This document shows positions 10,101 to 27,608 of a stretch of DNA of 34,964 nt, piece by piece. Made by a program: the position numbers and the translations under genes. The notes beneath the pieces are model-generated. The model had not been told where the DNA came from. It saw only the letters and a list, made by a program, of their open reading frames with translations, and did not search any database. Origin of the DNA: an uncultured Bacteroidales bacterium (GTDB lineage Bacteria > Bacteroidota > Bacteroidia > Bacteroidales > FEN-979); assembly GCA_903925275.1 (NCBI GenBank), contig CAIYES010000017.1, positions 1 through 34,964 on the forward strand. The letters are read 5' to 3'. Each line of letters opens with the position of its first letter. Position 1 is the stretch's first letter.

Positions 10101-10858
10101 TCTTTGTCAAGAATATCGTTCGGAAGGCGGTATTCGGGGATCCCGTAACGCAGCCATCCGCCTGATTTGGGTGCCGCTTCGTAAATATCAACCTGATGAC
10201 CTTCAATTTGCATGAAATGTCCGGCTGACAAGCCGCCGGGACCAGCACCGATCACTGCCACCTTTTTTCCGGTTGATGGTTTCACCGCCGGTACATATTT
10301 GCCGGGTGAAGCGAGGTCGTAATCGGAGGCGAACCGTTTCAGGTAGTCGATCCCCACCGGTGAACCTTCGTCAAGCAGATTGCGCCGGCACTCGGTTTCG
10401 CAAGGGCGCACACACACCCGTCCACAGATGGCTGGCAATGGGTTGGTTTCCTTGATGAGGGCAACGGCTTCGCTATATTGACCCTTCTCAATAAGCGATA
10501 TATATCCTTGTACATCGACGCCGGCAGGACAGGTTTGTTTACATGGAGCTGTACAATCGGCATAATGGTTGCTGAGCATCAGTTCCAACGCCATTTTTCG
10601 TGATTTTCTGATACCTTCGTTGTCGGTGATGATCTTCATCCCTTCGGTAAGTTTCGTTGAGCACGATGGCTGATGTCCCCGCATGCCTTCAACTTCTACC
10701 ACACAAACAAAACATGCGGTAAATGGTTCAAGACGGTCGTCGTTGCACAATGTAGGGATTTTAATCCCATGCCGTTCTGCAAGTTGCAGGATAGTTTCGC
10801 CGGGGTATCCTTTTACAATATTTCCGTTGAGAATGATATTTAATGAATTGTCAGCCAT
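7151..10858 (-). CDS. Large NAD(P)H/Fe-S subunit: NuoG-type Fe-S head + GltD/NfnB-like flavin module + 2x[4Fe-4S] + molybdopterin-like tail
   Basis: I choose the ATG at 10858 (MADNSLNIILNG) over a GTG at 10906 that lies inside a palindromic repeat. The 1235-residue chain holds, in order: a [2Fe-2S] ferredoxin fold with Cys38, 49, 52 and 66; a His-Cys3 site (His98, Cys102, 106, 110); the GltD N-terminal helical Fe-S site (Cys145, 149, 153, 157); an FAD motif GAGPGG (204-209) and an NAD(P)H motif GGGNTA (336-341); CLECGC (585-590); two [4Fe-4S] ferredoxin motifs (Cys635/638/641/645 and 678/681/684/688); then the Fe4S4 entry of a molybdopterin-oxidoreductase domain (Cys713/716/720/748) and its body to the end. 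That tail shows no Cys or Sec at the Mo-ligand position, as in NuoG, so it is probably structural. The GltD module should bind NADPH, as in NfnB or StnA. It is the third gene of a NuoE-NuoF-like operon and the likely second-acceptor subunit of a cytoplasmic bifurcating complex. Confidence 0.82.
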   Translation of the reverse strand: MADNSLNIILNGNIVKGYPGETILQLAERHGIKIPTLCNDDRLEPFTACFVCVVEVEGMRGHQPSCSTKLTEGMKIITDNEGIRKSRKMALELMLSNHYADCTAPCKQTCPAGVDVQGYISLIEKGQYSEAVALIKETNPLPAICGRVCVRPCETECRRNLLDEGSPVGIDYLKRFASDYDLASPGKYVPAVKPSTGKKVAVIGAGPGGLSAGHFMQIEGHQVDIYEAAPKSGGWLRYGIPEYRLPNDILDKEVKNITDLGVNIFYNKRLGENLSYRDLRLAYDATILTIGSQKGTGVGCEGDDAGNVYSGIDFLKNMEMTGQRYDFTGKTIAVVGGGNTAMDCCRTSIRCKAEKVYVIYRRTEKEMPANPIEIHESKLEGVEYLFLTLPKKINKNANGEVESVTCIKMMLGEPDASGRRRPVPVEGSDFDLKLDYILAAIGQKTDVNFINDINTHAEGGELKINKWGDIDADKATLQTGIPSVFAAGDGVSGPATIIEAVAQAKVASTSAHQFLMGLAMQPLKKPFTSKRDNFKKQRKEDYLGNFTTQIREEMPTLPTDARLNFNEVELGYAGEEVAHHEAQRCLECGCVAYFDCDLQKYSSEYNAQQKSFEGEYREYKVDFRHPYIEIDNNKCILCARCVRICREVVGANALGLINRGFDTYVAPSMGEALQDTPCESCGMCISTCPTGAITENVLFKPGPVKSDKAETICNYCSVGCALKLHHKNGFIFGVTGAQGLVNTDGNLCKYPKFGYQYLNDVNRITRPMLKVNGRFEEITFEKAYQVISEKIKSVKPSENAFFGGARLSNEELSLIHKLARAAAKTNNVGSFHYLGRGEGYRTNSDLNTSFAEIQHASAIYLLGTEINKDHAVVGFMVQNARHLKKIPVIMVTEKPVNTMSHKVNQQVVVKSYYHFVKAVNHYLLSKGLENALFLRDRVEGFEGYKAMLLLEDFDTLLTKSGLTADEIASFAEAYNNEMNAILVFSEKETSGNTSKELFNLARITGKLGKTANGLISLKEKNNSQGIFDMGISPHLGIGGQKLSDAAYINRLKETWRVDEIASEETDCLHGMLNEGLVRNLFVFGEDPVGCAINRTAIEKVFAMATFKVVQDYFLTDSAKAADLILPASFPSELGGTFTNAQKVIQEFGNVVKSRLEQTSLQQLTGILNEFGIISSDNPHEIFMEVIALLPVKREHGKLLMRPTKEDNNKRHYNHGCDAVTRRFEEEFDKQFTNKN

Positions 10859-10898
10859 TGGAAAAAAATTATATGTTACTGGATTTATATTTCTGTCG

Positions 10899-10921
10899 CA
10901 GGGCACAAAATTTTGTGCTCC
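10899..10921. repeat. Palindromic element, third copy of the GGGCACAA...TTGTGCCC family
   Basis: GCACAAAATTTTGTGC (10903-10918) is a perfect 16-bp palindrome, extended on both sides by a near-match (GG left, TCC right). It lies in the gap between the NuoF-like stop (10942) and the start of the large subunit (10858). Its arms match the two palindromes at 12758-12818, so it belongs to the same small dispersed family. It may form an mRNA hairpin inside the operon. Confidence 0.65.
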
Positions 10922-13367: not shown

Positions 13368-16300
13368 TTACTCGTTATTAATTATTTCCTTTTCCCATGT
13401 GATGACCGAAATTCGCTTCTTGCCATCCATCCGCACCGTTAACGGTTTTTCAAAGCGGACAATTGTAAAATATTGCGTGGTTCGTGTGTTTTTCTGTTGC
13501 CTGAGTACATCGTAGCGGATGAAGCTGTCGGATAGCTCCGGTTGTACAGAGAAATATCCTACATTCATGGAGGTGACGTTGTGAAAGAAATGAGATCCCG
13601 ACGATGCATCGAGGGGGAAACCCTCCAGACTGGTTTCGACGATCACCTTTGCATTGCTGATCTGTGGCCAAACAACGGGAACACCGATAAAACGGTCGCG
13701 TGTGCCCCATCGTCCAGGGCCTATGAGGATGTACTTCCTCCCGGCTTTCACCATTTCGCGATTGATTTGATCAATCTCTTCGGCCATTTCCACTGTTTTA
13801 CCTTTATCGAAGGTATCAGGATCCACAAACACCACCTCGTCAATGGTATCGATCATGCCATTTCCCATTTCTTTCTCTGAATAGAGCAGGATTTCATCCT
13901 CATTAATCTTTTCCATATCAATATCGAAATCGGCGATGTTCCCGATCAGCGGTTTGATTTGCAGGAGGTAGAACGATGATTTGTAATTTTCATCCCTGTT
14001 CAGGTCAATGGCAAATTCAATTTCAACCGGAGAGCCCAGCGCTTCTTTTACCACATCAAGAACAACTTCGATGGTCTTGGCCAATGGGATGTAGTTATAT
14101 TTCAGGATATCTGCAAAGTTGACCACCCTGGGTCCCATATCGCGTAAACCAGCCGAAATCCGATCATTCTCAAGGGAATATACCGAAGCAAGGTGCTTCA
14201 GGGTGCCATGCATTTCAGCGTCGTAAATGTCGAGTTTACGTAAACCGGCATCTTCTCCTTCAAGCAGGTTGACATCTTTTTTCTGTAAATCGACAGCATA
14301 GAAATAGACTTGCGAACCTTTGTACTGATCTTTGGCTGAATTGATTTCAAGATTTGGGTACAGCGGTGCAAAGCGAAAGGCTTTCTCCCCTTCTACCACA
14401 TAACGTCCCAGGCCCAGCGCCACAACAGCAAAACCCTCTTCGGGTTTCATGTGCGCAAAAGGATAGTAATTAAAGGATTGTGCAACACCACTGATGTGGG
14501 GATAATAGACATCTTCGTACTGATGTCCAACAACTTCCTGTACCACTACCGCCATCTTCTCCTGTTCAATGCGGTAATTTACAGCCTCGATGTATCCCTT
14601 GGCTGTTGGAGAATATACCGAAGCATATACCAGTTTGATGGCATCCATCAATTGTTCCAGCCGAACCTTGGGATCGGGATGGTTGTTCGGGATCAGGTAG
14701 GTTTCAAAAATCCCGGCAAACGGTTGATTTTGTGAATCCTCAAATAACCCCGACGACCGGATGGCAAGTGGTTTGGTGATATTTTTAATGATGAGCCTCA
14801 GCTTTTTAATGAGAGTCTCTGTAAGCCGTCCTTCAACAAACCAACGTTTAATCTGATCATAATCTGACTCATAAACAGCCTTTTCACGCAACTTGTTCCG
14901 GTCGAGGAAATATTCAAATTCTTCAGTACCGATGATCGATGTTTTTGGTGTCCGGATGTTGATATTAGGCACATGTTGGGCAAAATCATAATTGTAAATC
15001 AAGGTATTGACAAATGCAAGACCCCGCCCCTTCCCTCCAAGGGCGCCTTCGGTAAGCGCAAGGATGTTGTGTTCATCAGCGATGCTCGACTCCTCAAAAG
15101 GGATCACCTTCCCTATATTTTGTTCGTTCCTGAAATTCTGAATAACATTGAAAAGATATTCACGTAAAGATGCCGGGTCTTTGAAATCGGTAACCTTGGC
15201 AGGATTAAGGATTTTAGCCACCTGAATTTCTCCGCGGGCCATGAGCCAGAGTGAAAAATGGTCTTTACGGGCATGGTATAGCAATGATTCTTCCGGGATT
15301 GTTTTTAGAAGGTCTTCAAACTCTTTAAGCGATTTGGCCACTGCAATCTGCCCCCCCTCTTTATCACGGTAGATAAAATTCCCGAATCCCAAATAGTGCG
15401 TGATGAAACTCCTGAAATCGACCAGCAGGGTTTCTGAATTTTTATTGATAAATGAAGCTTTTAGCTCGTATGCCTTCTGGGCATTGTGTTCATCTGAAGA
15501 TTGCAGAACAATAGGCAGATCGTGGAGCTCTTTCCTGGTTTGTTTTACAAGGCTGAACCCGGCAGTATCATTAAGTTTTCCATCCTTTTTAAATTTCACA
15601 TCCGAGATCAGGCAAAGGATGTTGTCTCTGTACTTGTTGAAAATATAGATTGCCTCCTCAAATGTTGAGGCCAACAATATTTTCGGACGCGCTTTCAGTC
15701 GCAGAATGCGGTAAAGCTCGTCGGTAGTCACATCCTCGATGATGTTTTTTGTCTGTTCCAGTACGATGTTATACAGCATCGGCATGTACAGCGAATAATA
15801 TTTCGGTGAATCTTCAACCAGCAGGATAACCCTTACCATTCCGATCGTGGTATCATTCTCCACATTGATCTTATCCTCAAGGTAATTGATCATTGCGAAG
15901 AAAATTTTCGAATCCCCGTTCCAAACAAAGAGGCGATCGATCCAGGTCAGTTTTTCAGGTTCTTCCTCATAAACAGCAATGTCTGAGTTGCTGTTAAGAA
16001 GCAGAAAAACAGGGATATATTGGTATTGATCCTTTATCTTTTTACTAAGTTCAAGTGGAAATTGTTTATCGGAACCGATCATCACGATGATCAGGTCGTA
16101 ATGCTTGTTGTTAAGCTGCTCCATCACCTCTTCGGTGGTCGATACCCCTGTGATGCGTGGCATGGTGCTGAGGCTGAGCGAATAAAATTCACCCAGGACA
16201 TGCTCCGAAAAGCGACCCTCTTTTTCAATGCTGTATGCGTCGTATAAGTTGGCGACTAAAAGGATCTCCTTGACCTTGAACGGCATCAGGTCGTGGTACA

Positions 16301-17255
16301 GGTCGCGGTTGTAATTGGTGCGGTTAAGAAAGGTTTGCAGGAGCTGGCGGCTGTATTTCACAGGAATGGAAGGGTCCTGTTTGATCTCAGCGGCATCCTT
16401 CTGCACCGTTTTCCGCAGGATGGCTTTACCTTTAACAGAGTTCAGGTAACCAGTGATGAGGTTGGCAAGGTTGATGATCAGGTGACGTTCTTCTTCGAGA
16501 AATGGCCCCTCGAACGATGGTTGAAATGCTTTGACATAGCAAATCTGTATGAAGCCCTGTTGGTTGTCAATGGTTTCGAATTCCTGTTTTTGCGACCATT
16601 CCGTTTCACGAAATGCAGGGGTTTTCACTTCAACATTTGCATATTTGATACGGCCAACCGTATATTCAGGGTACTGCCATGCTTTGGGTAAAACCAGGCA
16701 AATCTGGTGCAATGCTTCCTCAATCGGTTTTCCTGTTCGAAGGATGGCAGTGGTTTGGTTGATCGCCGTTAATTCTTTCAGGCGTTCCCGTGTGATGTAT
16801 CGGCCTTCGCGGCCTTTAATGCCGTTAAGAAAACCTTCGATGAGCGTAGCCAGGTTCATTACCAGGTTTCGCTCTTCTTTCAGGAATGGGCCTTCATCTC
16901 TTTGCGGAAAATCCCGGAGATAAAATATACCAATTGTACCGCTTAGATTGTCAATAGTTTCAAAAACCTGTTCCTGCTGCCATTGGGTTTCGCGAAAGCC
17001 GGGACTGGTAAACTCCATATCCTCGAAACGCACCCTTGCAACAGTATATTCGGGGTACTGCCAGGCCTTGGGCAGTATCTGTGATATTTCGTGAAGGGTT
17101 TCAGGGATTGATTTTCCTGCCTTGATGATGGCTGTAGTTTCGTTTATGGCGGCCAGCTCTTTGAGACGTTCCTGATTATCATATACCAACTGGTTTACAT
17201 CTACTTTGTCAGGAATGACATTTTCGGGTCTGTTGTTTTGGTCTGGTGGTAGCAT
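13368..17255 (-). CDS. GAF-GAF-REC-REC-PEP/pyruvate-binding (PPDK_N-like) multidomain protein
   Basis: The 1295-residue protein opens with two tandem copies of a GAF-like sensor, each starting with RLKELAAINETTAI or RLKELTAINQTTAI and containing AWQYPEYTV and LRDFPQRDEGPFLKEER or its counterpart (about residues 30-145 and 155-275). Two receiver-like domains follow (about 325-465 and 472-640); the second has the acidic pair in LLVEDSP, LISDVKF and a late Lys (SFINKNSE). From about 735 there is an ATP-grasp PEP/pyruvate-binding domain: GGKGRGLAFVNTL (738), PLAIRSSGLFEDS (827), PFAGIFETYL and VVQEVVG. The end has GPGRWGTRDRFIG (about 1180). The swivelling phospho-His domain and TIM barrel of PEP synthase are absent, so it is not a complete PpsA. 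A role as a signalling kinase or regulator is inference. It leads the operon of the bifurcating-type complex. Confidence 0.75.
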   Translation of the reverse strand: MLPPDQNNRPENVIPDKVDVNQLVYDNQERLKELAAINETTAIIKAGKSIPETLHEISQILPKAWQYPEYTVARVRFEDMEFTSPGFRETQWQQEQVFETIDNLSGTIGIFYLRDFPQRDEGPFLKEERNLVMNLATLIEGFLNGIKGREGRYITRERLKELTAINQTTAILRTGKPIEEALHQICLVLPKAWQYPEYTVGRIKYANVEVKTPAFRETEWSQKQEFETIDNQQGFIQICYVKAFQPSFEGPFLEEERHLIINLANLITGYLNSVKGKAILRKTVQKDAAEIKQDPSIPVKYSRQLLQTFLNRTNYNRDLYHDLMPFKVKEILLVANLYDAYSIEKEGRFSEHVLGEFYSLSLSTMPRITGVSTTEEVMEQLNNKHYDLIIVMIGSDKQFPLELSKKIKDQYQYIPVFLLLNSNSDIAVYEEEPEKLTWIDRLFVWNGDSKIFFAMINYLEDKINVENDTTIGMVRVILLVEDSPKYYSLYMPMLYNIVLEQTKNIIEDVTTDELYRILRLKARPKILLASTFEEAIYIFNKYRDNILCLISDVKFKKDGKLNDTAGFSLVKQTRKELHDLPIVLQSSDEHNAQKAYELKASFINKNSETLLVDFRSFITHYLGFGNFIYRDKEGGQIAVAKSLKEFEDLLKTIPEESLLYHARKDHFSLWLMARGEIQVAKILNPAKVTDFKDPASLREYLFNVIQNFRNEQNIGKVIPFEESSIADEHNILALTEGALGGKGRGLAFVNTLIYNYDFAQHVPNINIRTPKTSIIGTEEFEYFLDRNKLREKAVYESDYDQIKRWFVEGRLTETLIKKLRLIIKNITKPLAIRSSGLFEDSQNQPFAGIFETYLIPNNHPDPKVRLEQLMDAIKLVYASVYSPTAKGYIEAVNYRIEQEKMAVVVQEVVGHQYEDVYYPHISGVAQSFNYYPFAHMKPEEGFAVVALGLGRYVVEGEKAFRFAPLYPNLEINSAKDQYKGSQVYFYAVDLQKKDVNLLEGEDAGLRKLDIYDAEMHGTLKHLASVYSLENDRISAGLRDMGPRVVNFADILKYNYIPLAKTIEVVLDVVKEALGSPVEIEFAIDLNRDENYKSSFYLLQIKPLIGNIADFDIDMEKINEDEILLYSEKEMGNGMIDTIDEVVFVDPDTFDKGKTVEMAEEIDQINREMVKAGRKYILIGPGRWGTRDRFIGVPVVWPQISNAKVIVETSLEGFPLDASSGSHFFHNVTSMNVGYFSVQPELSDSFIRYDVLRQQKNTRTTQYFTIVRFEKPLTVRMDGKKRISVITWEKEIINNE

Positions 17256-17678: not shown

Positions 17679-19955
17679 ATTAAGACCTTTCACATAACAG
17701 TTACCGGCCTGGTTCAGGGAGTCGGGTTTCGTCCTTTTGTATACCGGACGGCCCTGAAATACGGATTGACCGGGTGGGTGCAGAATACCAACGAAAATGT
17801 TCTGATCCGCATCAGCGGAAAACCATTGGACACAGATCGGTTCCTTGTCTCCCTCAGGCAGGAAGCACCGCCAGCTTCAGTAATTGAAGAAATCACGCAT
17901 CGGGAAATTGAACCGGAGGTTTTCCCGAACTTTTCAATCCTTCACAGCCATGATGTTTCGGATGAGATTACCGAAATCAGTCCCGACATTGCTGTTTGCA
18001 AGGAATGCCTTGATGACATGGAGAAAGAGGGCTCCCGGCTGAATTATGCCTTTGTGAACTGCACCAATTGCGGACCCCGTTTTACCATCATCCGCGATCT
18101 TCCCTATGACCGCGATAAAACGACCATGAAGCAGTTTACCATGTGTCCCGATTGCAGTAATGAATACAAATCCATTACCGACCGCAGATTTCATGCCCAA
18201 CCCACAGCCTGTGCGTGTTGTGGCCCACACTATGAATTGTTTGTCAAAGGGCAAAAAATCAGTGAGGTCATAGAGGTCATTGTTGACCTTGTTTCCGATT
18301 GCCTTGAAAACGAAGGCATTGCACTGATCAAAGGGCTCGGTGGCATGCACCTGGCCTGCGATGCATTCAGTGAAACCTCTGTTGAAAAACTCCGGGAAAT
18401 GAAGAAGCGCGACGGAAAACCTTTTGCCGTGATGTTCCGCGATCTGGAAACCCTGAAAAATTATGCGATGGTGGATGAAACAGAGGCGCTATCGCTTTCA
18501 TCGTGGCGCAGTCCGATCGTGCTGCTCAAACTAAAAAACCTCTCCGATCAACCGTTTCTGGCTGCCGGGATCAACTCGGGATTAAACCTTATTGGTGCAA
18601 TGCTGCCTTACATGCCGTTTCACTACCTCCTCTTTCGTCAATTGAATACATCGGCCATCGTACTTACAAGCGGAAATTTCAGCAGTGAACCCATCCTGAT
18701 CAGCAACCAGGCGGCCATTGAACAGTTCACCCCATTCGCGGATGTCATCGTACTGCATAACCGCGATATTTTCAACCGTACCGACGATTCCGTTGTAAGA
18801 ATAGCCGGCGGTATTGAGCGAATTTTAAGGCGTTCGCGTGGTTATGCCCCTGCTGCCGTGCGCACTGCATTGAACCTTGACGGTATCCTGGCCTTCGGCG
18901 CAGAACTGACAAATTGTTTTTGCCTCGGAAAAGGACATAAGGCGTTTTTGAGTCAACATATCGGTGATCTCAAAGGGCTGGAAACCACCCGATTTTACGA
19001 ACAGTCACTCACCCAATTCTTGCAGTTATTTCGGGTAAAACCATCGCTTCTTGCAGTGGATTTACACCCGGAATACATCTCCACCAAAACTGCGCAACAT
19101 TATGGTGACCTTCCGGTGATTTCGGTGCAGCATCATCACGCACATATAGCCTCCTGCATGGCAGAACATCATCTCGATGAAAAAGTGATCGGTGTGGCTA
19201 TGGATGGCACCGGGTATGGCGATGACGGCCATATCTGGGGTTCAGAATTCCTGTTGTGCGACCTTAATGACTATATCCGCATCACCCATTTCGAATATCT
19301 TCCGCTGCCCGGCGGTGACATGGCTGCCGAAGAACCCTGGCGGATGGCTGTCTCCTATCTTTACAAGATCTTTGGAAGTGATTTCCTTAAATTAAATCTG
19401 CCATTTTTCAATCAGCTTGATCCGGATAAGGTAGACATGATTGTAAAAATGATTGACCGGAAGATCAATTGTCCGCTGACCTCCGGCGCCGGCAGGTTGT
19501 TCGATGCCGTTGCTTCGCTTATCGGAGTATGCCAAACTGCAACATTTCAGGCTGAAGGACCCATGCGGCTCGAATCATTGGTTGAGGATGATTGCATCGA
19601 ATCCTATGCCTTTGAACTGGATCAAACCATCAGGTTCGACGCCACCATCCGGGGAATTGTTGAAGATCTCTCCCGGGGAACCGATGTTAAACTAATTGCC
19701 TCAAAGTTCCACAATACCATAATTTCGGTTATCTTTGAATCTGCAAATGCCATCCGGATCAGGGAAAATGTAAATAATTTAGTGCTTTCGGGGGGGGTAT
19801 TTCAGAATAAATATCTTTTGGAGGGAACGATAGCTTTACTCCGGAAAAATGATTTCAATGTTTATACCCATGCAGTTGTGCCTGCCAACGACGGTGGAAT
19901 TGCATTGGGGCAATTAGCAGTTGCATCTAAAAGGAGGGAACATAAATGTGTTTAG
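17679..19955 (+). CDS. hypF: HypF carbamoyltransferase, [NiFe] hydrogenase maturation (ATT start proposed)
   Basis: HypF makes the thiocarbamate on HypE that becomes the cyanide ligands of the NiFe site. The first conventional start (TTG 17766) would delete most of the acylphosphatase domain. The frame is open back to a TAA at 17661, and the lost part reads IKTFHITVTGLVQGVGFRPF, the classic HypF head, so I place the start at ATT 17679, giving 758 residues, the usual size. Then come the Zn-finger region (CKECLDDME, NCTNCGPRF, MCPDCSNEY, CACCGPHYE), the YrdC-like domain (GEGIALIKGLGGMHL counterpart, AVMFRDLETL, LTSGNFSSEPI) and the Kae1-like domain (VQHHHAHIASCMAEH, MDGTGYGDDGHIWGSEF, LSGGVFQNKYL). 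The end overlaps hypC by 10 bp, indicating translational coupling. It is the first gene of hypFCDEAB. Confidence 0.92.
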   Translation: MKTFHITVTGLVQGVGFRPFVYRTALKYGLTGWVQNTNENVLIRISGKPLDTDRFLVSLRQEAPPASVIEEITHREIEPEVFPNFSILHSHDVSDEITEISPDIAVCKECLDDMEKEGSRLNYAFVNCTNCGPRFTIIRDLPYDRDKTTMKQFTMCPDCSNEYKSITDRRFHAQPTACACCGPHYELFVKGQKISEVIEVIVDLVSDCLENEGIALIKGLGGMHLACDAFSETSVEKLREMKKRDGKPFAVMFRDLETLKNYAMVDETEALSLSSWRSPIVLLKLKNLSDQPFLAAGINSGLNLIGAMLPYMPFHYLLFRQLNTSAIVLTSGNFSSEPILISNQAAIEQFTPFADVIVLHNRDIFNRTDDSVVRIAGGIERILRRSRGYAPAAVRTALNLDGILAFGAELTNCFCLGKGHKAFLSQHIGDLKGLETTRFYEQSLTQFLQLFRVKPSLLAVDLHPEYISTKTAQHYGDLPVISVQHHHAHIASCMAEHHLDEKVIGVAMDGTGYGDDGHIWGSEFLLCDLNDYIRITHFEYLPLPGGDMAAEEPWRMAVSYLYKIFGSDFLKLNLPFFNQLDPDKVDMIVKMIDRKINCPLTSGAGRLFDAVASLIGVCQTATFQAEGPMRLESLVEDDCIESYAFELDQTIRFDATIRGIVEDLSRGTDVKLIASKFHNTIISVIFESANAIRIRENVNNLVLSGGVFQNKYLLEGTIALLRKNDFNVYTHAVVPANDGGIALGQLAVASKRREHKCV

Positions 19956-20170
19956 CGATACCAGCAAAAGTAATCAGTGTCGAAGGGTCAAGCGCCCTGG
20001 TGACCATTGAAGATGTTGAATATAAAGCCAGCCTGTTGTTGCTTGACGACGTGAATCCGGGTGACTATGTGATGTTGCATGCCGGTTTTGCCATTGAAAA
20101 GGTGGACGCTGACGAGGCCGCAGAAACCCTGCGTCTGTTAAATGAAATTGCAGACAACAGCCGTCCATGA
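19946..20170 (+). CDS. hypC: HypC hydrogenase maturation chaperone
   Basis: The 74-residue product begins MCLAIPAKVISVEG; the Cys directly after the initiator Met is the conserved HypC residue that contacts HypD and the large-subunit precursor. The OB-like barrel (ALVTIEDVEYKASLLLLDDVNPGDYVMLHAGFA, quoted in part) and the helical tail (DEAAETLRLLNEI) match the family in length and content. It overlaps the end of hypF and lies 27 bp before hypD. HypC carries the Fe(CN)2CO group with HypD. There is a single copy here, so it probably serves the one hydrogenase in the window. Confidence 0.95.
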   Translation: MCLAIPAKVISVEGSSALVTIEDVEYKASLLLLDDVNPGDYVMLHAGFAIEKVDADEAAETLRLLNEIADNSRP

Positions 20171-20197
20171 ACTACATCATGACGAAATGATCTTCAA

Positions 20198-21277
20198 ATG
20201 AAATATATTGACGAATACCGTAAAAAAGATTTGATTCTGGCTGTTTCGGAAGAGCTGAAGAAGATTTCGAAAAAGCAGATTACCCTGATGGAGGTTTGCG
20301 GCGGACATACCATGGCCATCCACCGGTTCGGGCTGCATGCCCTGTTGCCGCCTACCATACACCTTTTATCCGGACCTGGTTGCCCGGTTTGCGTTTCGAG
20401 CCAGCATTTTTTAGATACCGCCATTGCCTGCAGTAAAATCCCGGGCGCTATCATCACCACCTATGGCGATCTGATACGGGTACCCGGCTCAGTTACTTCC
20501 CTCGAAAAAGAGAAGGCCGATGGCGCCGATATCCGGATCATTTATTCGGTGTTGGAAGCATTGGAAATTGCGAAAAATAATCCCGAAAAAGCTGTAATCT
20601 TCCTTGGAATCGGGTTCGAGACCACCGCTCCGGCAACAGCCGCAGCAATCGTACAGGCAAAAAATGAAAATATCAGCAATTTTTTTGTGCTGAGTGCACA
20701 CAAGGTAATGCCCCCGGTAATGAAAGCGCTGGTGGATGAAGGGGTTAAAATAGACGGCTTTATTGCCCCCGGACATGTAACCGCCATCACCGGCACCGGA
20801 ATTTACAATAATCTGGCGGCTGTGTATGGTCTGGGTGTTGTCGTAGCAGGATTCGAACCGGTAGACATGATGCAGGCCATCCTGATGCTGACCCTGCAGC
20901 TTGAATCGGCTGCCCCGAAGGTCGAAATTCAGTATAAACGAATTGTGCATCCTGAAGGAAACAAAATTGCGTTGGGCTTGCTTGAACAGGTTTTTGAGCA
21001 GAAAGACGACCGTTGGAGGGGATTGGGCGTCATTCCTGCGAGTGGACTTAAAATAAGGGAGGAATTCGCTGCTTTTGATGCCGAAAAAAGATATCTGCTC
21101 ACCGTACCAGAACCATCAGATCCCAAAGGCTGTATCTGCGGTTCAATTCTCAGGGGACAAAAAACCCCAAACGATTGCGGACTTTTTGCAGGAAAATGCA
21201 CCCCTTCCGATCCGGTTGGCGCATGTATGGTTTCCGGCGAAGGAACTTGTGCTACCTATTATAAATACCGTTCATGA
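20198..21277 (+). CDS. hypD: HypD, Fe-S scaffold for Fe(CN)2CO assembly
   Basis: The 359-residue product has the HypD signatures: LMEVCGGHTMAIHRFG (Cys near residue 31, the redox/iron site), LLSGPGCPVCVSSQ (CPVC motif), FLGIGFETTAPATAAAI, LSAHKVMPPVM, and the C-terminal cysteine set around the [4Fe-4S] cluster (KGCICGSILRG, NDCGLFAGKCTP, GACMVSGEGTCATYY). With HypC it forms the scaffold on which iron gains its CN and CO ligands. Length is normal. The stop overlaps the hypE start in an ATGA junction (21274-21277). Confidence 0.96.
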   Translation: MKYIDEYRKKDLILAVSEELKKISKKQITLMEVCGGHTMAIHRFGLHALLPPTIHLLSGPGCPVCVSSQHFLDTAIACSKIPGAIITTYGDLIRVPGSVTSLEKEKADGADIRIIYSVLEALEIAKNNPEKAVIFLGIGFETTAPATAAAIVQAKNENISNFFVLSAHKVMPPVMKALVDEGVKIDGFIAPGHVTAITGTGIYNNLAAVYGLGVVVAGFEPVDMMQAILMLTLQLESAAPKVEIQYKRIVHPEGNKIALGLLEQVFEQKDDRWRGLGVIPASGLKIREEFAAFDAEKRYLLTVPEPSDPKGCICGSILRGQKTPNDCGLFAGKCTPSDPVGACMVSGEGTCATYYKYRS

Positions 21278-22296
21278 ACCCAAAGGAAAAAAAAGTTTTG
21301 CTGAGCCATGGCAGTGGTGGCCGGATAATGCACGACCTCATTGAAGATGTATTCATCAAACATTTTAAGAATAACATCCTGGATGAACAAACCGATGCGG
21401 CTATCCTGCCTGTTGATTCTCCTGAAGTTGCATTCACCACCGACTCGTTTGTGATCGATCCGCTGTTCTTCCCAGGTGGAAATATTGGCAAACTGGCTGT
21501 ATGCGGTACGGTGAATGACCTTTCGGTTTCTGGTGCAACACCACGCTATTTAAGCGTTTCTTTCATCATTGAAGAAGGCTTTGCCCTGGATGAACTCGAG
21601 GCAATTGTAAAATCCCTTGCCGAAGAGGCCCGATGCGCAAACGTAACCATCGTAACCGGCGATACAAAGGTTGTGAATAAAGGCAAATGCGACAAGTTGT
21701 TTATCAATACAGCCGGTGTTGGCATGGTTCGTAAGGATGACCGACTGGTTGGGAAGGCGAAAAATATCAAACCCGGGGATGTCATAATTATCAATGGTAC
21801 AATCGGAGATCATGGCATGGCCGTGATGAATGCACGTGAATCGTTTAATTTCAAATCGCCGGTCGTATCAGATTGTGCTTCATTGAACCACTTGATCCGC
21901 GAGGTGCTTGACCAGTCGCCAGGGGTGAAATTCATGCGCGACCCCACACGGGGCGGCGTAGCCGCGGTATTGAACGAACTTGCTGACAAAACCGGGCTTG
22001 GTATTGAAATCGATGAATCTGCATTGCCCATAACCAAAGGGGTTTTGGCGATGTGTGAGCTTCTCGGTTTTGACCCGCTTCATATTGCTAACGAAGGCAA
22101 AGTACTGATCGTAGCTGATACAGATGAAGGTGATCACATCCTGGAAATCATGAAAAAAAATGATTTGGGCCTGCTGAGCGCCATCATCGGCAGGGTAACC
22201 GGTGACAACGCTGGAAAAGTTGTGTTGAAAACCGAAACAGGGGGCAAACGAATTGTCGATACCTTAACCGGTGATCCGTTGCCACGAATTTGCTGA
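21274..22296 (+). CDS. hypE: HypE, thiocarbamate dehydratase
   Basis: The 340-residue product starts LLSHGSGGRIMHDLIEDVF, has the PurM/AIR-synthase-like ATP site (FTTDSFVIDPLFFPGGNIGKLAVCGTVNDLSV, quoted in part), VTGDTKVV, MRDPTRGGVAAVLNE, and ends PLPRIC. The terminal Cys is the residue that HypF carbamoylates and HypE dehydrates to a thiocyanate. All expected parts are present, so it should be active. It is translationally coupled to hypD by a 4-bp overlap and followed 12 bp later by hypA. Confidence 0.96.
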   Translation: MNPKEKKVLLSHGSGGRIMHDLIEDVFIKHFKNNILDEQTDAAILPVDSPEVAFTTDSFVIDPLFFPGGNIGKLAVCGTVNDLSVSGATPRYLSVSFIIEEGFALDELEAIVKSLAEEARCANVTIVTGDTKVVNKGKCDKLFINTAGVGMVRKDDRLVGKAKNIKPGDVIIINGTIGDHGMAVMNARESFNFKSPVVSDCASLNHLIREVLDQSPGVKFMRDPTRGGVAAVLNELADKTGLGIEIDESALPITKGVLAMCELLGFDPLHIANEGKVLIVADTDEGDHILEIMKKNDLGLLSAIIGRVTGDNAGKVVLKTETGGKRIVDTLTGDPLPRIC

Positions 22297-22308
22297 AAAA
22301 GGATTGGT

Positions 22309-22650
22309 ATGCATGAATTATCGCTCGCATTGGAGGTGATCGGACTTGCTCAACGTGAGGCCGGAAAAAACGGAGTATCTGCTATCCAGGAGATCCTGAT
22401 CGAAGTCGGCGATCTCAGTGGTGTTGAGGCAGATTCGTTTCAATGGGGACTGGAGATGCTGGTAAAAGGTACCATACTTGAAGATGCCGTTGTAAACATA
22501 ATCCGTACTCCGGGGAAAGGCAAATGCATCGGATGTAACATTGAATTTGAGATGAAAACCCGGCTCGATGTATGCCCTGAATGCCAATGCTTTCCATCAG
22601 GAATAACCGGTGGAAAGGAATTCAGGGTGGTGTCGATGCTGGCAGAGTAG
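22309..22650 (+). CDS. hypA: HypA, nickel-delivery protein with Zn site
   Basis: The 113-residue product begins MHELSLALEVI; His2 and the N-terminal amine form the Ni site of HypA. The Zn motif is KCIGCNIEF and DVCPECQCF, two Cys pairs as in the family. With HypB it inserts Ni into the hydrogenase large subunit. An extra Cys follows the second pair (CQC), not unusual. It lies between hypE and hypB. Confidence 0.95.
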   Translation: MHELSLALEVIGLAQREAGKNGVSAIQEILIEVGDLSGVEADSFQWGLEMLVKGTILEDAVVNIIRTPGKGKCIGCNIEFEMKTRLDVCPECQCFPSGITGGKEFRVVSMLAE

Positions 22651-22686
22651 ATATATTAATAACTGAAAAAAACATAACCATACATT

Positions 22687-23511
22687 ATGTGCGACACATG
22701 CGGCTGCGGAAACCCCGACGAATTTAAAATTCATGATCACAACCATGACCATGACCATGATCATTCACATAGCCATGACCATCAACACGATCACGATCAT
22801 GGGCATCATCACGATCACAACCCGGAACATGGTCATGAACCAACGCATACCCATGAACACCTGCCAAAAAAGGTGATCAGCCTCAACATGGATATTTTAT
22901 CTGAGAATAACCGGCTGGCCGAACGGAACCGCGGATGGTTTGAAGGAAAACATGTTCTCTGTCTGAACATGGTGAGTTCGCCGGGTTCCGGCAAAACCAG
23001 TATTCTTGAAAAAACAATTCATTCCCTGATTTCCACCTGGAAAATTTTTGTTATTGAAGGAGATCAGCAAACCACACGCGATGCCGACCGGATAGAAAAA
23101 TCGGGGGCTCCTGCCATTCAGATCAACACGGGTTCGGGATGTCACCTCGATGCAAAAATGATCAGTCTCAGCCTGAAAAAACTTGAAATTTCCGACCATT
23201 CGATTCTCTTCATTGAAAACGTCGGCAACCTTGTTTGCCCAGCCATGTTTGACCTGGGTGAACAAAAAAGGGTGGTGGTGATCAGCGTTACCGAAGGCGA
23301 TGACAAGCCATTGAAATATCCCTACATGTTTCAAACATCCAATCTCTGCATCATCAACAAGACAGATCTTCTTCCTTATGTTGATTTCAGCGTGGAAACT
23401 GCCGTGAAATATGCGCGGCAACTTAACCCAAACCTGGAGTTCATACAGATGTCGTCAAAAACAGGGGAAGGAATGGCTGAATGGTACGATTGGCTTGGGA
23501 AGCAATTTTAA
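22687..23511 (+). CDS. hypB: HypB, Ni-binding GTPase
   Basis: The 274-residue product starts MCDTCGCGNPDE, the high-affinity Ni motif CxxCGC, followed by a His-rich stretch from about residue 15 to 58 with more than twenty His (HDHNHDHDHDHSH and on), suited to Ni storage. The GTPase core has the P-loop MVSSPGSGKTS, IEGDQQTTRDADRI, the NTGSGCHLDA motif that binds Ni and Zn, FIENVGNLVCPA and the base-recognition INKTDLLPY. It is a full-length, His-rich type HypB. It is the last gene of the operon, ended by the hairpin at 23518-23561. Confidence 0.97.
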   Translation: MCDTCGCGNPDEFKIHDHNHDHDHDHSHSHDHQHDHDHGHHHDHNPEHGHEPTHTHEHLPKKVISLNMDILSENNRLAERNRGWFEGKHVLCLNMVSSPGSGKTSILEKTIHSLISTWKIFVIEGDQQTTRDADRIEKSGAPAIQINTGSGCHLDAKMISLSLKKLEISDHSILFIENVGNLVCPAMFDLGEQKRVVVISVTEGDDKPLKYPYMFQTSNLCIINKTDLLPYVDFSVETAVKYARQLNPNLEFIQMSSKTGEGMAEWYDWLGKQF

Positions 23512-23566: not shown

Positions 23567-24019
23567 TCAGTTATCCTGAACCAGCTTCCTCACCCACAGC
23601 ATTGCTTCAGGGATGGCCAATTCTACCTCAGGCGACAATTCCATGCCCATATCCTGAAAATCCCCAACAGATATGGCAACAAGATGTATTTGAGGCATAT
23701 TTCCGAGCAAACAGGCTGAATCGATCAGGTCTTTGAGCCCGATCTCATGTGCACTCAACTGCCGTGGAAAATCGTCGGCATACCGGGGATGAAGTATCCG
23801 CACATGTCCGGGCGGAAACTGATCGAGAGAGGCATCAACAATAATTACGGTCGGATAGGATTGAATGATACCCAGCAGGTGAAATCCTCCGGTGCCCCCG
23901 TCCATCAGGTCTGCACCGGGTAACCCCTCCTTTTCGAGCCGGGATATCACATGAATCCCGGCGCCTTCATCATTCATTAATAGATTACCGATCCCAAGAA
24001 CCAGGATATTGTTTTTCAG
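23567..24019 (-). CDS. Hydrogenase maturation protease (HyaD/HybD family; CTG start proposed)
   Basis: The first ATG in frame (23977) would delete the family's N-terminal beta strand. Upstream the frame reads KNNILVLGIGNLL and is open to a TAA 18 bp before a CTG at 24019, so I start there: 150 residues, the usual size. With that numbering the Ni-sensing ligands fall at Glu18 (LMNDEGAG), Asp62 (VIIVDAS) and His91 (LSAHEIGL), nearly the HybD positions 16, 62 and 93. DGGTGGFHLLG is also typical. The enzyme cuts the C-terminal tail of the large subunit after Ni insertion. It follows the cytochrome b gene by 29 bp as the last gene of the structural operon. The rare start might keep its level low. 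Confidence 0.88.
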   Translation of the reverse strand: MKNNILVLGIGNLLMNDEGAGIHVISRLEKEGLPGADLMDGGTGGFHLLGIIQSYPTVIIVDASLDQFPPGHVRILHPRYADDFPRQLSAHEIGLKDLIDSACLLGNMPQIHLVAISVGDFQDMGMELSPEVELAIPEAMLWVRKLVQDN

Positions 24020-24048: not shown

Positions 24049-24768
24049 TCAACCTTTCGGGCATTCTTCTGTTTTGTTATCATGACGCTCGATGACATCT
24101 TCTTCAATAAATTTCCAACCTCCAATCATTGAAGATGTTACACCACGTCTTTCAATATAGTCGTGATAAAAAACCAGATAAATATGAATCATGGCAAATA
24201 TGATAAAGCCCCACATGAGCAGATGATGTATTTGCCTTACATTCATATCCCCGCCAAGAAAAGGAACTACCCAGGCAAATAAACGTGGAAGCATTGCATT
24301 GCTCATGGCTCCATACATTCCGAATCCGGTAAGACACTGCAACAGGAAAATCAGGAACGTGATGAAATAGACGAGGCTGGCCAATGAATTGTGGCCAATC
24401 GAATCGATCTGCTTGTTGGTAACCTGCAGAACATCAACTTTAATAACCTCCAATATCTCTTTCCACTGACAACGTTTTAGCGGAATGAAATTATACCAGC
24501 GCGAAAATTCATTGCCCGTGAATCCCCAATAGATACGAAATATGAAATTGAAGAAAAAGAGGAAAGCGCTGATAAAATGGATAAACCGGACAGTACCAAA
24601 CCAAAAATTGAAATAGGCTTCGGTACCTTTCATAAAGGCAGGCGGATCTCCGATCAGATAACCGGTAACACACAGCGTGGTAACACACAGTGCATTTATC
24701 CAATGGTAGATGCGTACGGGCATTTCCCATACATGCACTTCACGCAAAGGGATGGTTCGACTTCTCAT
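24049..24768 (-). CDS. hyaC: [NiFe] hydrogenase b-type cytochrome subunit
   Basis: The 239-residue membrane protein belongs to the HyaC/HupC diheme cytochrome family (usual length about 230). Four or so helices carry heme-ligand His: RIYHWINALCVTTLCVTGYLIG (helix 1), RFIHFISAFLFFFNFIFRIYWG (quoted from helix 2), VYFITFLIFLLQCLTGFGMYG, and HHLLMWGFIIFAMIHIYLVFYHD (quoted in part; final helix with several His). It anchors the periplasmic hydrogenase and passes electrons to the quinone pool. It starts 3 bp after the large-subunit stop. The gene is intact, so this is a respiratory uptake enzyme. Confidence 0.92.
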   Translation of the reverse strand: MRSRTIPLREVHVWEMPVRIYHWINALCVTTLCVTGYLIGDPPAFMKGTEAYFNFWFGTVRFIHFISAFLFFFNFIFRIYWGFTGNEFSRWYNFIPLKRCQWKEILEVIKVDVLQVTNKQIDSIGHNSLASLVYFITFLIFLLQCLTGFGMYGAMSNAMLPRLFAWVVPFLGGDMNVRQIHHLLMWGFIIFAMIHIYLVFYHDYIERRGVTSSMIGGWKFIEEDVIERHDNKTEECPKG

Positions 24769-24771
24769 GGG

Positions 24772-26493
24772 TTAATAGGTTTTCAGGTCATGGATATAAC
24801 TGCCATTTTCGTCATAAAGATGTACGGCACATGCAAGGCAAGGATCGAAGGAGTGGATCGTTCTGAGTACTTCAAGCGGCACTTTCGGATCAGCAACCGG
24901 GGTTCCGATCAGCGATTCTTCAAATGCGGAACGTTGTCCTTTCGGATCGCGTGGCGATGCATTCCAGGTAGTAGGAACAACTAACTGGTAGTTGGCGATT
25001 TTCTTATCCTCAATAACAATAAAATGCGACAATGCACCGCGGGGAGCTTCTACCATTCCGATGCCTTTTGCCTCTTTGGGCCAGGAAGCAGGTTCCCATT
25101 TATCATTGTTTTGGGTCCGGGAATCACCGTTTTTAATATTGGCAAGGAGCTGTTGATAAAACTCAAGTGCCCATCCGCAGACCAGCTTGGTTTCAAGACC
25201 ACGGGCGGCTGTGCGTCCGAGGGTTGAGAACAATGCAGCTACAGGCACATCAAGCGCTTTCAGGGCACCTTCAATAACTTCCTTGTAATCGGCACGACCT
25301 GAAGCATACCCTATCAGCATGCGCGACAATGGTCCGACTTCCATCGGATGCCCTTTCCAGCGCGGAGTCTTTACCCAACTGTATTTTTGTGTAAAATCGA
25401 GATGCTCATACGGAGGTTTGGGTCCGGTATAATTAAATTTTGTCTCCCCTTCCCATGGATGCAATCCGGTTTTATCACCTTTTGAATATTCGTACCAGGA
25501 GTTGTTGATATATTCCTGAATTTGTTCCGGGTCATCGGCTTTAACCTCATGTATTTTACTCAGGTCACGTCCCAAAATTACGCCACGGGGCATTTTAAAA
25601 CTGTCGGGATTGTTGTAGCCATTGCTTGGGAAATCGCCGAAAGACAGATAATTTGTCAATCCTCCGCCAATGGCGCCCCAATCGCTTTTGTAGAATCCTG
25701 CAATGGCAATTAAGTCGGGAATATATACCTGATCGACGAAAGTCTTGGCATCTTCGAACAGTTTGCCAACAAAGGCAAGACGTTCGGCATTGACCGCGTT
25801 TGCCTCATCAATATTGATGGAGCAGGGAACCCCTCCAACCAGGTAGTTGGGATGTGGATTTTTCCCGCCAAAGATGGTATGTACCTTCACGAGTTCCTTC
25901 TGCCATTCAAGAGCCTCAAGATAATGGGCTACAGCAATGAGGTTCACTTCGGGAGGCAGTTTATAGGCTTTATGTCCCCAGTAGCCATTGGCAAAAATAC
26001 CGAGCTGCCCGCTTTCTACGAAATTTTTAAACTTCTTCTGGATGTCGGTAAAATAGCCAACCGAACTTTTCGGCCATGCTGAAATGCTTTGAGCAATCCG
26101 GGATGCCTCGGTGGGGTTGGCTTTAAGGGCTGATACAACATCAACCCAGTCGAGGGCATGGAGTGCATAAAAATGAACGACATGGTCCTGGATGTACAAT
26201 GCATTGGCCATCAGGTTCCGAATGAGCTCGGCATTGGGTGGTACCGATATGTTCAGTGCGTTTTCCACCGTTCTGACAGAAGTAAGCGAATGTGTTGATG
26301 TACAAACACCGCAAACTCGTCCGACAAAAGCCCAAGCATCGCGCGGATCACGTCCCTTTAAAATGGTCTCAATTCCCCGCACCATGGTGCCTGCGCTGTA
26401 GGCGTCGGTGATTTTACCATCATTAATTTCAATTTCAACCCGTAAGTGTCCTTCAATGCGGGTGATGGGGTCTATTACAATTCTTTCTGCCAT
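24772..26493 (-). CDS. hyaB: [NiFe] hydrogenase large subunit (group 1, membrane-bound uptake type)
   Basis: The 573-residue catalytic subunit has the N-terminal IDPITRIEGHLRVEI, the first Ni ligand pair Cys61 and Cys64 in RVCGVCTSTHSL, and the second pair Cys552 and Cys555 in DPCLACAVH. After His558 a 15-residue tail (LYDENGSYIHDLKTY) remains for the protease to remove. The RGIETILKGRDPRDAWAFVGR region and overall length match group 1d/1e uptake enzymes. It works with the small subunit in the periplasm, exported as a folded pair by the Tat signal of its partner. The gene begins 2 bp after the small-subunit stop, so the two are coupled. Confidence 0.96.
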   Translation of the reverse strand: MAERIVIDPITRIEGHLRVEIEINDGKITDAYSAGTMVRGIETILKGRDPRDAWAFVGRVCGVCTSTHSLTSVRTVENALNISVPPNAELIRNLMANALYIQDHVVHFYALHALDWVDVVSALKANPTEASRIAQSISAWPKSSVGYFTDIQKKFKNFVESGQLGIFANGYWGHKAYKLPPEVNLIAVAHYLEALEWQKELVKVHTIFGGKNPHPNYLVGGVPCSINIDEANAVNAERLAFVGKLFEDAKTFVDQVYIPDLIAIAGFYKSDWGAIGGGLTNYLSFGDFPSNGYNNPDSFKMPRGVILGRDLSKIHEVKADDPEQIQEYINNSWYEYSKGDKTGLHPWEGETKFNYTGPKPPYEHLDFTQKYSWVKTPRWKGHPMEVGPLSRMLIGYASGRADYKEVIEGALKALDVPVAALFSTLGRTAARGLETKLVCGWALEFYQQLLANIKNGDSRTQNNDKWEPASWPKEAKGIGMVEAPRGALSHFIVIEDKKIANYQLVVPTTWNASPRDPKGQRSAFEESLIGTPVADPKVPLEVLRTIHSFDPCLACAVHLYDENGSYIHDLKTY

Positions 26494-26495
26494 GG

Positions 26496-27608
26496 CTATG
26501 ATTCTTTCGGGGTTACATTGTTGGAACCTGTTTCAGGTTCATTGATTATCTCTTTGTGCTTGCGGATGTTGGTTACAATGGCATGTCCGGCAATTCCGAC
26601 TGCTGTTGCAATTCCAAGTCCGAGTCCGACCTTGTCCGCTGTGGTTTCGATACCAAATCCTGCCACACCCGGAAGATGCTGATAGAAGGGCCCGTTGTCC
26701 CAGAATCCGGCTTCGGCACATCCGATGCATGGATGTCCCGATTGGATCGGATAACTCACGCTGTCGTTCCATTTGATAATCCCACAGGAATTATAGGTAA
26801 CCGGACCTTTACATCCCATTTTATATAGGCAATATCCGCGTTTGGCGCCTTCGTCGTCGAACGATTCGACAAATAAACCGGCGTCGAAATTTGCCCGGCG
26901 ATAGCAGGTGTCGTGCACCCTGCGGGAATAAAACGCTTTTGGCCTGTTCATGCCATCCAGTTGCGGAATGCGGCCGAATGTCAGCAAATGGACTACAACA
27001 CCTGCCATTACATCGGCAATGGGCGGACAGCCCTGCACGTTAACGACCGGTTTGCCACTGATAACTTTATGTACCGGTTTCGCCCCTGTAGGATTGGGAC
27101 TTGCCGCCTGAACACAACCTGCAGAAGCACAGTTACCCCATGCAACTACGGCCATGCAATCTTTAACAGCCTCGGTAAGTATCTGAAGCGCACTCCGCCC
27201 CCCAATACAGCAATATGCCTCATTTTCAGTAGGAATGGAACCTTCAACCATGACGATGTACTCGCCAGGGTATTTCTTCATTACCGCTTTGTATGCATCT
27301 TCAGCCTGAACTCCGGAAGCAGCCATCAGGGTTTCCTGGTAATCCAGTGAAATTTTATTCAGTATAATATCTGCCACAATGGGGTGAGATGCCCGGATGA
27401 ACGACTCGCTGCAGCAGGTACATTCCTGGAAATGAAACCAGATGACCGGAAGCCTCGGTTTTGATTCAAGCGCTTTAACAATTTGCCCCACACCACTGGC
27501 TTCCAGGCCTAAGAAAGCTGCCATGGTCGTGCAAAATTTAAGAAAATCACGGCGGGAAATACCATTCCCTCTGACTTCCTCATAAAAAGAAGGTTTCTGA
27601 TTCTCCAT
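26496..27608 (-). CDS. hyaA: [NiFe] hydrogenase small subunit with six-Cys proximal cluster
   Basis: The 370-residue precursor has a twin-arginine signal (SRRDFLKFC, residues 18-26). Cluster ligands are all present: proximal Cys63, 65, 66, 160, 165 and 194 (ECTCCSESF, WGNCASAGC, VQGCPP); distal His232, Cys235, 260, 266; medial Cys275, 294, 297. The two extra proximal Cys (65 and 165) replace the Gly of O2-sensitive enzymes and are the mark of the [4Fe-3S] cluster of O2-tolerant group 1d hydrogenases such as HoxK and HyaA. A C-terminal helix (about 325-347) anchors it in the membrane. It is the first gene of the operon; the promoter must lie in 27609-28001. Confidence 0.96.
   Translation of the reverse strand: MENQKPSFYEEVRGNGISRRDFLKFCTTMAAFLGLEASGVGQIVKALESKPRLPVIWFHFQECTCCSESFIRASHPIVADIILNKISLDYQETLMAASGVQAEDAYKAVMKKYPGEYIVMVEGSIPTENEAYCCIGGRSALQILTEAVKDCMAVVAWGNCASAGCVQAASPNPTGAKPVHKVISGKPVVNVQGCPPIADVMAGVVVHLLTFGRIPQLDGMNRPKAFYSRRVHDTCYRRANFDAGLFVESFDDEGAKRGYCLYKMGCKGPVTYNSCGIIKWNDSVSYPIQSGHPCIGCAEAGFWDNGPFYQHLPGVAGFGIETTADKVGLGLGIATAVGIAGHAIVTNIRKHKEIINEPETGSNNVTPKES

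Follow-up and report, generated by a model that had tools for sequence, protein, structure and literature searches.

HoxK of C. necator and HyaA of E. coli are the textbook small subunits of the group 1d [NiFe]-hydrogenases. In uptake enzymes of this kind, the electrons from H2 pass from the NiFe site to a [4Fe-3S] cluster, then through a [3Fe-4S] and a [4Fe-4S] cluster to a cytochrome b and finally to quinone. The accessory proteins HyaE and HyaF (HoxO and HoxQ) and HoxR are frequent in group 1d and do not define it. Enzymes of group 1e (Isp type), such as the one containing HydS of A. vinosum, possess a proximal cluster with four cysteines.

In C. necator, the exchange of one or both of the two supernumerary cysteines for glycine lowered the tolerance towards O2 (PMC10583674). 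The HydDB paper describes group 1d as providing electron input for aerobic respiration and for oxygen-tolerant anaerobic respiration, and assigns an enzyme of Phaeodactylibacter to it (PMC5037454). Furthermore, Parabacteroides has been listed with a group 1d enzyme (PMC12578642), and Chlorobia and sister classes of the Bacteroidota possess such enzymes as well (PMC8125076). Group 1d in the Bacteroidota has therefore already been published, and because the enzymes of Phaeodactylibacter, Parabacteroides and the Chlorobia are in print, the enzyme described here is an ordinary addition to the group.

The hya and hyp genes of the window

The window, i.e. the whole stretch of DNA that was analysed, comprises 34,964 nucleotides from an uncultured Bacteroidales bacterium (contig CAIYES010000017.1, assembly GCA_903925275.1). 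Between positions 26496 and 27608 the plus strand is interrupted by stop codons, and the single long open reading frame, of 370 amino acids, lies on the minus strand; the coordinates in the original prediction were right, and the strand, which it had not named, is the minus strand. The frame encodes HyaA, the small subunit of a [NiFe]-hydrogenase (TIGR00391, 474 bits, cut-off 179.5). By eye, its N-terminus is of the Tat type with the twin-arginine motif SRRDFLKF, and a hydrophobic stretch is located at the C-terminus. It is followed on the same strand by hyaB (24772-26493), encoding the catalytic large subunit of 573 amino acids with the nickel-ligand motifs RVCGVCTSTH and DPCLACAVH, by hyaC (24049-24768; TIGR02125, 173 bits, cut-off 121.5), encoding a b-type cytochrome subunit as the putative membrane anchor on the quinone side, and by hyaD (23567-23977; TIGR00072, 106 bits, cut-off 47), encoding a hydrogenase maturation protease. 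The histidines of HyaC are conserved in an alignment with HyaC of E. coli and the homologues of C. necator and P. distasonis. The hyaD frame remains open upstream to about 24037, and between 23977 and 24037 it contains no ATG, GTG or TTG; most of the relatives compared possess a TTG about ten codons before LGIGN. Either the assembly is wrong at this point or translation begins at a rare codon.

Convergent to the hya genes, which are arranged in the order hyaA-hyaB-hyaC-hyaD, the plus strand carries the genes hypFCDEAB (17766-23511). These are hypF (17766-19955, listed with a TTG start; TIGR00143, 714 bits, well over the cut-off), coding for a carbamoyltransferase, hypC (19946-20170), a frame beginning with MCLAIPAKV that is too short to appear in the ORF lists, hypD (20198-21277; TIGR00075, 470 bits, well over the cut-off), hypE (21274-22296), hypA (22309-22650) and hypB (22687-23511); the products of the last three match the annotated HypE, HypA and HypB of P. 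distasonis. Taken together, the window holds a complete gene set for a predicted membrane-bound, H2-oxidising enzyme with the six-cysteine cluster.

The group 1d Hya of P. distasonis (NZ_OY725764.1) resembles the window in its six cysteines, the gene order hyaABCD, the family of the cytochrome b and an operon without HyaE and HyaF, at an identity of 73%. It differs in the arrangement of the hyp genes, since hypCDE immediately precedes hyaA and is read in the same direction, whereas hypFCDEAB is convergent in the window. The record of Parabacteroides distasonis (L119) is circular, has a size of 57.7 kb and was deposited as a plasmid; the complete hyp-hya set lies near a recombinase gene. The membrane-bound hydrogenase of C. 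necator (HoxK, HoxG and cytochrome b; 5mdj) shares with the window the six homologous cysteines, Glu76, the nickel-ligand motifs and the cytochrome b partner, and 192 of 360 aligned residues of the small subunits are identical. Its operon also carries accessory genes of the types hoxO, hoxQ, hoxR, hoxT and hoxV, and searches for the first three gave nothing in the window. In Hyd-1 of E. coli (HyaABCDEF), the first four genes occur in the same order, the six cysteines are present and the small subunit belongs to the same clade (180 of 368 aligned residues identical), whereas hyaE, hyaF and appC had no match in the window.

Six cysteines and placement in group 1d

The codons for Cys63, Cys65 and Cys66 of the proximal cluster are located at 27411-27422 (minus strand) in the motif ECTCCSES, those from Cys160 to Cys165 at 27114-27131 (minus strand) in the motif GNCASAGC, and that for Cys194 at 27027-27029 (minus strand) in the motif GCPP; Cys65 and Cys165 are the supernumerary residues. 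All six align with Cys17, 19, 20, 115, 120 and 149 of HoxK, and the translation and this alignment bear out the HoxK/HyaA spacing that had been proposed for them. Additionally, Glu76 of HoxK is a glutamate in the window HyaA, and the histidine and cysteines at the other cluster positions agree with the reference enzymes. A phmmer search of the PDB with HyaA gave HoxK of C. necator as the top match (5mdj, E = 2.5e-128), followed by its variants and E. coli Hyd-1, and the O2-sensitive enzymes scored below these.

Among the 179 aligned small-subunit rows, in which some genomes are present twice, all six residues are cysteines in 162. The other 17 consist of 11 reference or outgroup rows, two partial genes and four rows that stand for three Bacteroidales sequences of full length lacking both extra cysteines, one of these sequences being counted twice. 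Six cysteines were found in all 18 rows from the family of the window (two further genomes of this family, 20 in total, lie outside this count), in 68 of the 69 named loci, the remaining one being a partial gene, and in 30 of 30 rows from the phylum search, the top-scoring ones among 75 genomes that exceeded the cut-off. Judged from these alignments, the match with HoxK is attributed to homology and not to chance. His229 of the large subunit (E. coli numbering), a residue with a reported role in stabilising the proximal cluster (PMC4486115), was rejected as a second marker of O2 tolerance; it occurs in all 58 rows, including the four-cysteine and HybC sequences, and is not diagnostic here.

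For the phylogeny, 97 of the 179 rows were kept after removal of L180 (a duplicate of L019), of non-reference rows shorter than 300 amino acids and of rows at least 93% identical to a kept one. The group letters of the references other than HoxK, HyaA and HybO are our own assumption, and we take A. vinosum and Alteromonas to be 1e. In the resulting tree, one clade of 86 rows (SH-aLRT 98) united the window with HoxK, E. coli HyaA, the remaining Bacteroidota and the family f42 of the same phylum, and it also contains the four rows of the four-cysteine lineages; HybO of E. coli, D. vulgaris 1h2a and Sulfurimonas were placed outside. After thinning to 57 rows for a careful tree, the clade was supported with 100/100 against the pair of A. 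vinosum and Alteromonas and was divided into one branch with HoxK, HyaA and f42 (99/88) and a second one with the remainder, nearly all named Bacteroidota (99/86). The same two branches appeared in the large-subunit tree (54 rows, without L202, L070 and 3myr), which has one outgroup row only and cannot test the 1d placement. The f42 rows, which group with HoxK and HyaA and not with the Bacteroidales part of the clade, perhaps represent the freshwater Chlorobia with group 1d Hya (PMC8125076). All 30 top-scoring rows of the phylum search belong to f42 and have six cysteines. The enzymes of two records titled Proteobacteria and Clostridium (L072 and L077) are nested among those of Bacteroidales, which may be due to mislabelled bins or to transfer. 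A small subunit encoded on a plasmid of Sulfurimonas paralvinellae (L146, 3857-5092) carries an asparagine in place of a standard proximal-cluster cysteine (DCAGNSE).

These trees place the small subunit with HoxK and HyaA, apart from the 1b, 1c and 1e references, and so support the predicted group 1d; a position outside this group, named beforehand as the finding that would speak against it, was not obtained. It is very improbable that the enzyme belongs to group 1e or to the 'oxygen-protecting' group 1f, that of Geobacter Hya, and carries six cysteines by chance. The references of the trees came from groups 1b, 1c, 1d and 1e, which leaves some room for 1f, but the 1e references (A. vinosum and Alteromonas) carry glycine at both extra positions and stand outside the clade at full support, while HoxK and E. 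coli HyaA are inside it. On account of the six cysteines, the clade shared with HoxK and HyaA and the hyaABCD and hyp gene set, the window enzyme is classified as an ordinary group 1d enzyme with predicted O2 tolerance.

It is very likely, as far as can be judged from the genes, that HyaAB is a membrane-bound enzyme of the group 1d type which uses the Tat system for export and the cytochrome b HyaC as its anchor, tolerates O2 and passes electrons from H2 through quinone to oxidases. The NiFe site of HyaB would oxidise H2, and the electrons would flow from the proximal [4Fe-3S] cluster, ligated by the six cysteines, through the medial and the distal cluster to HyaC; quinone would then carry them to oxidases of the cbb3, aa3 or bd type. 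If O2 reached the active site, the proximal cluster would give two electrons in quick succession and would help to reduce O2 to water; due to this quick supply, the enzyme would keep working in O2.

Tolerance could be absent in practice, even with the cluster residues in place, if HyaE, HyaF and HoxR are needed for cluster assembly in air. Single-sequence searches of the window with HyaE and HyaF of E. coli and HoxO, HoxQ and HoxR of C. necator were empty, as had been noted for hyaE, hyaF and hoxR in the operon, and the HyaE model, applied to the whole host genome (G000) as the original prediction had suggested, gave no match either. Weak matches of this model in six of the 19 genomes of the genus (21-26 bits, four of them over the cut-off of 22, none in G000) were not accepted as HyaE. 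The lack of these partners beside the hya genes was counted against an O2-tolerant enzyme, but the six-cysteine operon of P. distasonis also does without HyaE, HyaF and HoxR, the accessory proteins of E. coli and C. necator were found in none of the Bacteroidota loci compared (single-sequence searches, many loci short), and assembly may occur under low O2. An enzyme that fails in air for want of these proteins is therefore considered unlikely.

Predicted oxygen use in the host and its relatives

The host genome is 94.9% complete with 3.57% contamination and is present in 574 contigs, a condition that was counted against the proposed route from H2 to O2. The search of the genome for terminal oxidases that had been recommended revealed a fused CcoNO of 719 amino acids (NF011053, 1237 bits, over the cut-off), CcoG (418 bits, over the cut-off), a CcoP-like protein that at 94 bits stays below its cut-off of 180, an aa3-type CtaD that also falls short (TIGR02891, 648 bits; cut-off 671) together with a subunit-III-like protein, CydA (PF01654, 559 bits, over the cut-off; under those of the NCBIfam equivalogs) and CydB (114 bits, cut-off 117). 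With cbb3-, aa3- and bd-type oxidases encoded, several of them under the NCBIfam equivalog cut-offs, the host is by gene content predicted to be able to use oxygen, which agrees with the earlier naming of oxygen as a possible terminal acceptor. The NrfA model had no match in the genome.

A 'bifurcating-type complex' in the window had been taken as a sign of an anaerobe or microaerophile. At 7151-10906, a fusion protein of 1251 amino acids joins a GltD-like flavoprotein to a ferredoxin part of the NuoG type and to a part resembling formate dehydrogenase; the match of this last part stops at position 500 of 672, and NuoF- and NuoE-like genes adjoin. Strict anaerobiosis is not shown by this complex. 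Another large protein of 1295 amino acids (13368-17255) resembles PEP synthase and PigC only around positions 760-957, and its remainder has no NCBIfam match.

In the GTDB family of the host (43 genomes), the hydrogenase and a COX1 of the CcoNO class occur together in 18 genomes, the hydrogenase alone in two, CcoNO alone in two and neither in 21 (Fisher 5e-8). COX1 of the aa3 class was found in 20 of 20 hydrogenase genomes versus 12 of the 23 others (p = 3e-4), counting a gene in two pieces with a stop in G015, which has the hydrogenase, and one in two pieces in G020, which lacks it. Outside the host genome, on whose proteins alone NCBIfam was run, score and length served to define the COX1 class. 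Strong NrfA matches (>550 bits) and the hydrogenase are nearly mutually exclusive within the genus, with such matches in one of 13 hydrogenase genomes versus five of the six without it (p = 0.003). The weak matches of five further hydrogenase genomes (20-26 bits, partly above the cut-off of 24.1) were not counted here, and 10 of the 19 genomes exceed this cut-off if they are included. As the genomes are kin and no correction for kinship was made, the p-values for family and genus are only descriptive.

Across the order, a homologue is present in 43 of 393 sampled genomes. The cysteines were readable, at least in part, in 41 of these, and 37 have all six. A COX1-family match of more than 300 bits occurs in 13 of these 37 genomes; the other 24 all possess bd, five of them with a COX1-family match of 151-173 bits to which no class was given. 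Each of the 37 has either bd or a strong heme-copper match. Of all 43 genomes with a homologue, only G052, G452 and G589 lack bd, and G452 has heme-copper matches. Six cysteines are compatible with bd as the sole clear oxidase, and the motif was rejected as proof of aerobic respiration, since coupling to O2 cannot be read from it when 24 of 37 six-cysteine genomes have bd and no strong aa3 or cbb3 match. Of the original view that a six-cysteine enzyme implies the use of oxygen or a life at oxic-anoxic boundaries, the part on oxygen is upheld for this host by its oxidase genes, but the motif alone is insufficient for it.

The same 24 genomes are consistent with an enzyme whose main partner is an anaerobic acceptor, fumarate or another one, and whose six-cysteine cluster serves only to survive passing O2, presumably as in gut Bacteroidales. 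P. distasonis, with an enzyme at 73% identity, and the Chlorobia, phototrophs of anoxic water that also have group 1d enzymes (PMC8125076), point in this direction too, and the HydDB description of group 1d fits an anaerobic acceptor as well as O2. Nevertheless, judged by score, a heme-copper oxidase is present in G000 and in every one of the 20 hydrogenase genomes of its family, and we regard an anaerobic main partner as possible but rather unlikely for this host. The enzyme probably feeds electrons from H2 through quinone to O2.

The 69 named loci are mostly titled uncultured Bacteroidales, Bacteroidia or Bacteroidetes, with a few Prolixibacteraceae or Mariniphaga. The isolate names contain Loclat, Kiruna or Alinen in 12 of them and LacPavin in four; Loclat, Kiruna and Alinen are sites of a data set on oxygen-stratified lakes (PMC8121793). 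The host itself may live in a setting like that of these relatives, where H2 from fermentation below would meet O2 from above.

Four-cysteine forms within the six-cysteine clade

Inside the six-cysteine clade, the homologues of four of the 41 scorable Bacteroidales genomes lack supernumerary cysteines (loci L019/L180, L173/L198, L189/L199 and L190/L200). Both residues are replaced in these forms, by glycine at both positions in G052 and G721 and by glycine and asparagine in G545, and the other cluster ligands are kept; in the partial gene of G589 the second position is glycine and the first is off the contig. The codons in G052 are GGC and GGT. Its protein is 79% identical to the six-cysteine protein of G692, that of G545 is 77.5% identical over 218 positions to the one of G689, a genome with the same family code, and has 73.5% identity to the G692 protein, and that of G721 is 61% identical to the nearest six-cysteine row. 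The nickel-ligand motifs of the large subunit are intact in all four genomes. Beside the hydrogenase genes of G545, hyaC is a remnant consisting of the N-terminal part and a short tail (L198, about 3990-4250), followed, by eye, by a transporter-like frame. With glycine at both positions, the Gly/Gly forms correspond in nature to the C19G/C120G variant engineered in HoxK.

In G052 (96% complete), bd is absent and the heme-copper family is represented by no more than a fragment below the cut-off, and G589 has neither oxidase family, a weak finding as this genome is 78% complete; G545 possesses bd and G721 both classes. G052 and G589 are the only ones of the 43 hydrogenase genomes without heme-copper oxidase and bd. 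The lack of both families in two of four four-cysteine genomes versus none of the 39 others gives p = 0.007, in a small sample without correction for kinship which includes the incomplete G589 and two genomes, among the 39, that were not scored for cysteines. Cysteine loss as a plain result of lacking heme-copper oxidases was not supported (present in one of four versus 14 of 39; Fisher p = 1), and the link to absent oxidases is not a strict one since G721 has both classes.

Parsimony on the small- and large-subunit trees places the four-cysteine rows in three places and cannot by itself separate loss from regain. The large-subunit data rejected a single four-cysteine clade (p-AU 5e-7), and the small-subunit data did so weakly (0.028). 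For the small subunit, p-AU was 0.044 for G052 with G545, 0.021 for G052, G721 and G589, and 0.139 for G545, G721 and G589; for the large subunit it was 0.135 for G052 with G545 and 1.7e-6 for G052, G721 and G589. All these groups were defined after the four-cysteine state was known. Because one clade of all four is rejected but some subsets are not, the trees indicate that this state arose in at least two independent lineages. In a survey of 177 species, the CFB group is given with six cysteines only, and four enzymes of Firmicutes with four cysteines lie within the six-cysteine group (PMC4486115); the form of G721 and G589 may instead descend from these. As far as the consulted parts of PMC10583674 and PMC4486115 extend, a literature search for natural loss of the supernumerary cysteines yielded only engineered exchanges and this exception in the Firmicutes. 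The Bacteroidales forms extend the exception and appear to be new.

We lean slightly towards the view that in the Bacteroidota branch of group 1d the cluster for protection against O2 has been repeatedly undone, that the motif tracks oxygen use on short time scales and that the label '1d' overcalls tolerance. The four-cysteine forms occur partly in genomes without heme-copper oxidase or bd and once with a truncated cytochrome b gene, and the family of the window retains the six cysteines together with heme-copper oxidases. With supernumerary cysteines missing in the homologues of four of 41 Bacteroidales genomes, the class label, as read from these sequences, does not guarantee the presence of the O2-tolerance cluster. 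Surveys of the HydDB type classify hydrogenases by the catalytic subunit. Because four Bacteroidales enzymes in the six-cysteine clade, one of them scored at one position, are without supernumerary cysteines, any claim of O2 tolerance should be preceded by an inspection of the small-subunit residues.

This side result matters more than the window enzyme itself, and the four-cysteine forms with their six-cysteine relatives are natural pairs for testing the cost and benefit of the two cysteines. The window enzyme, in turn, belongs to an uncultured member of the Bacteroidales with the predicted genes to burn H2 with O2 and with relatives in stratified lakes, and bears on the question of who intercepts the H2 from fermentation near the oxycline.
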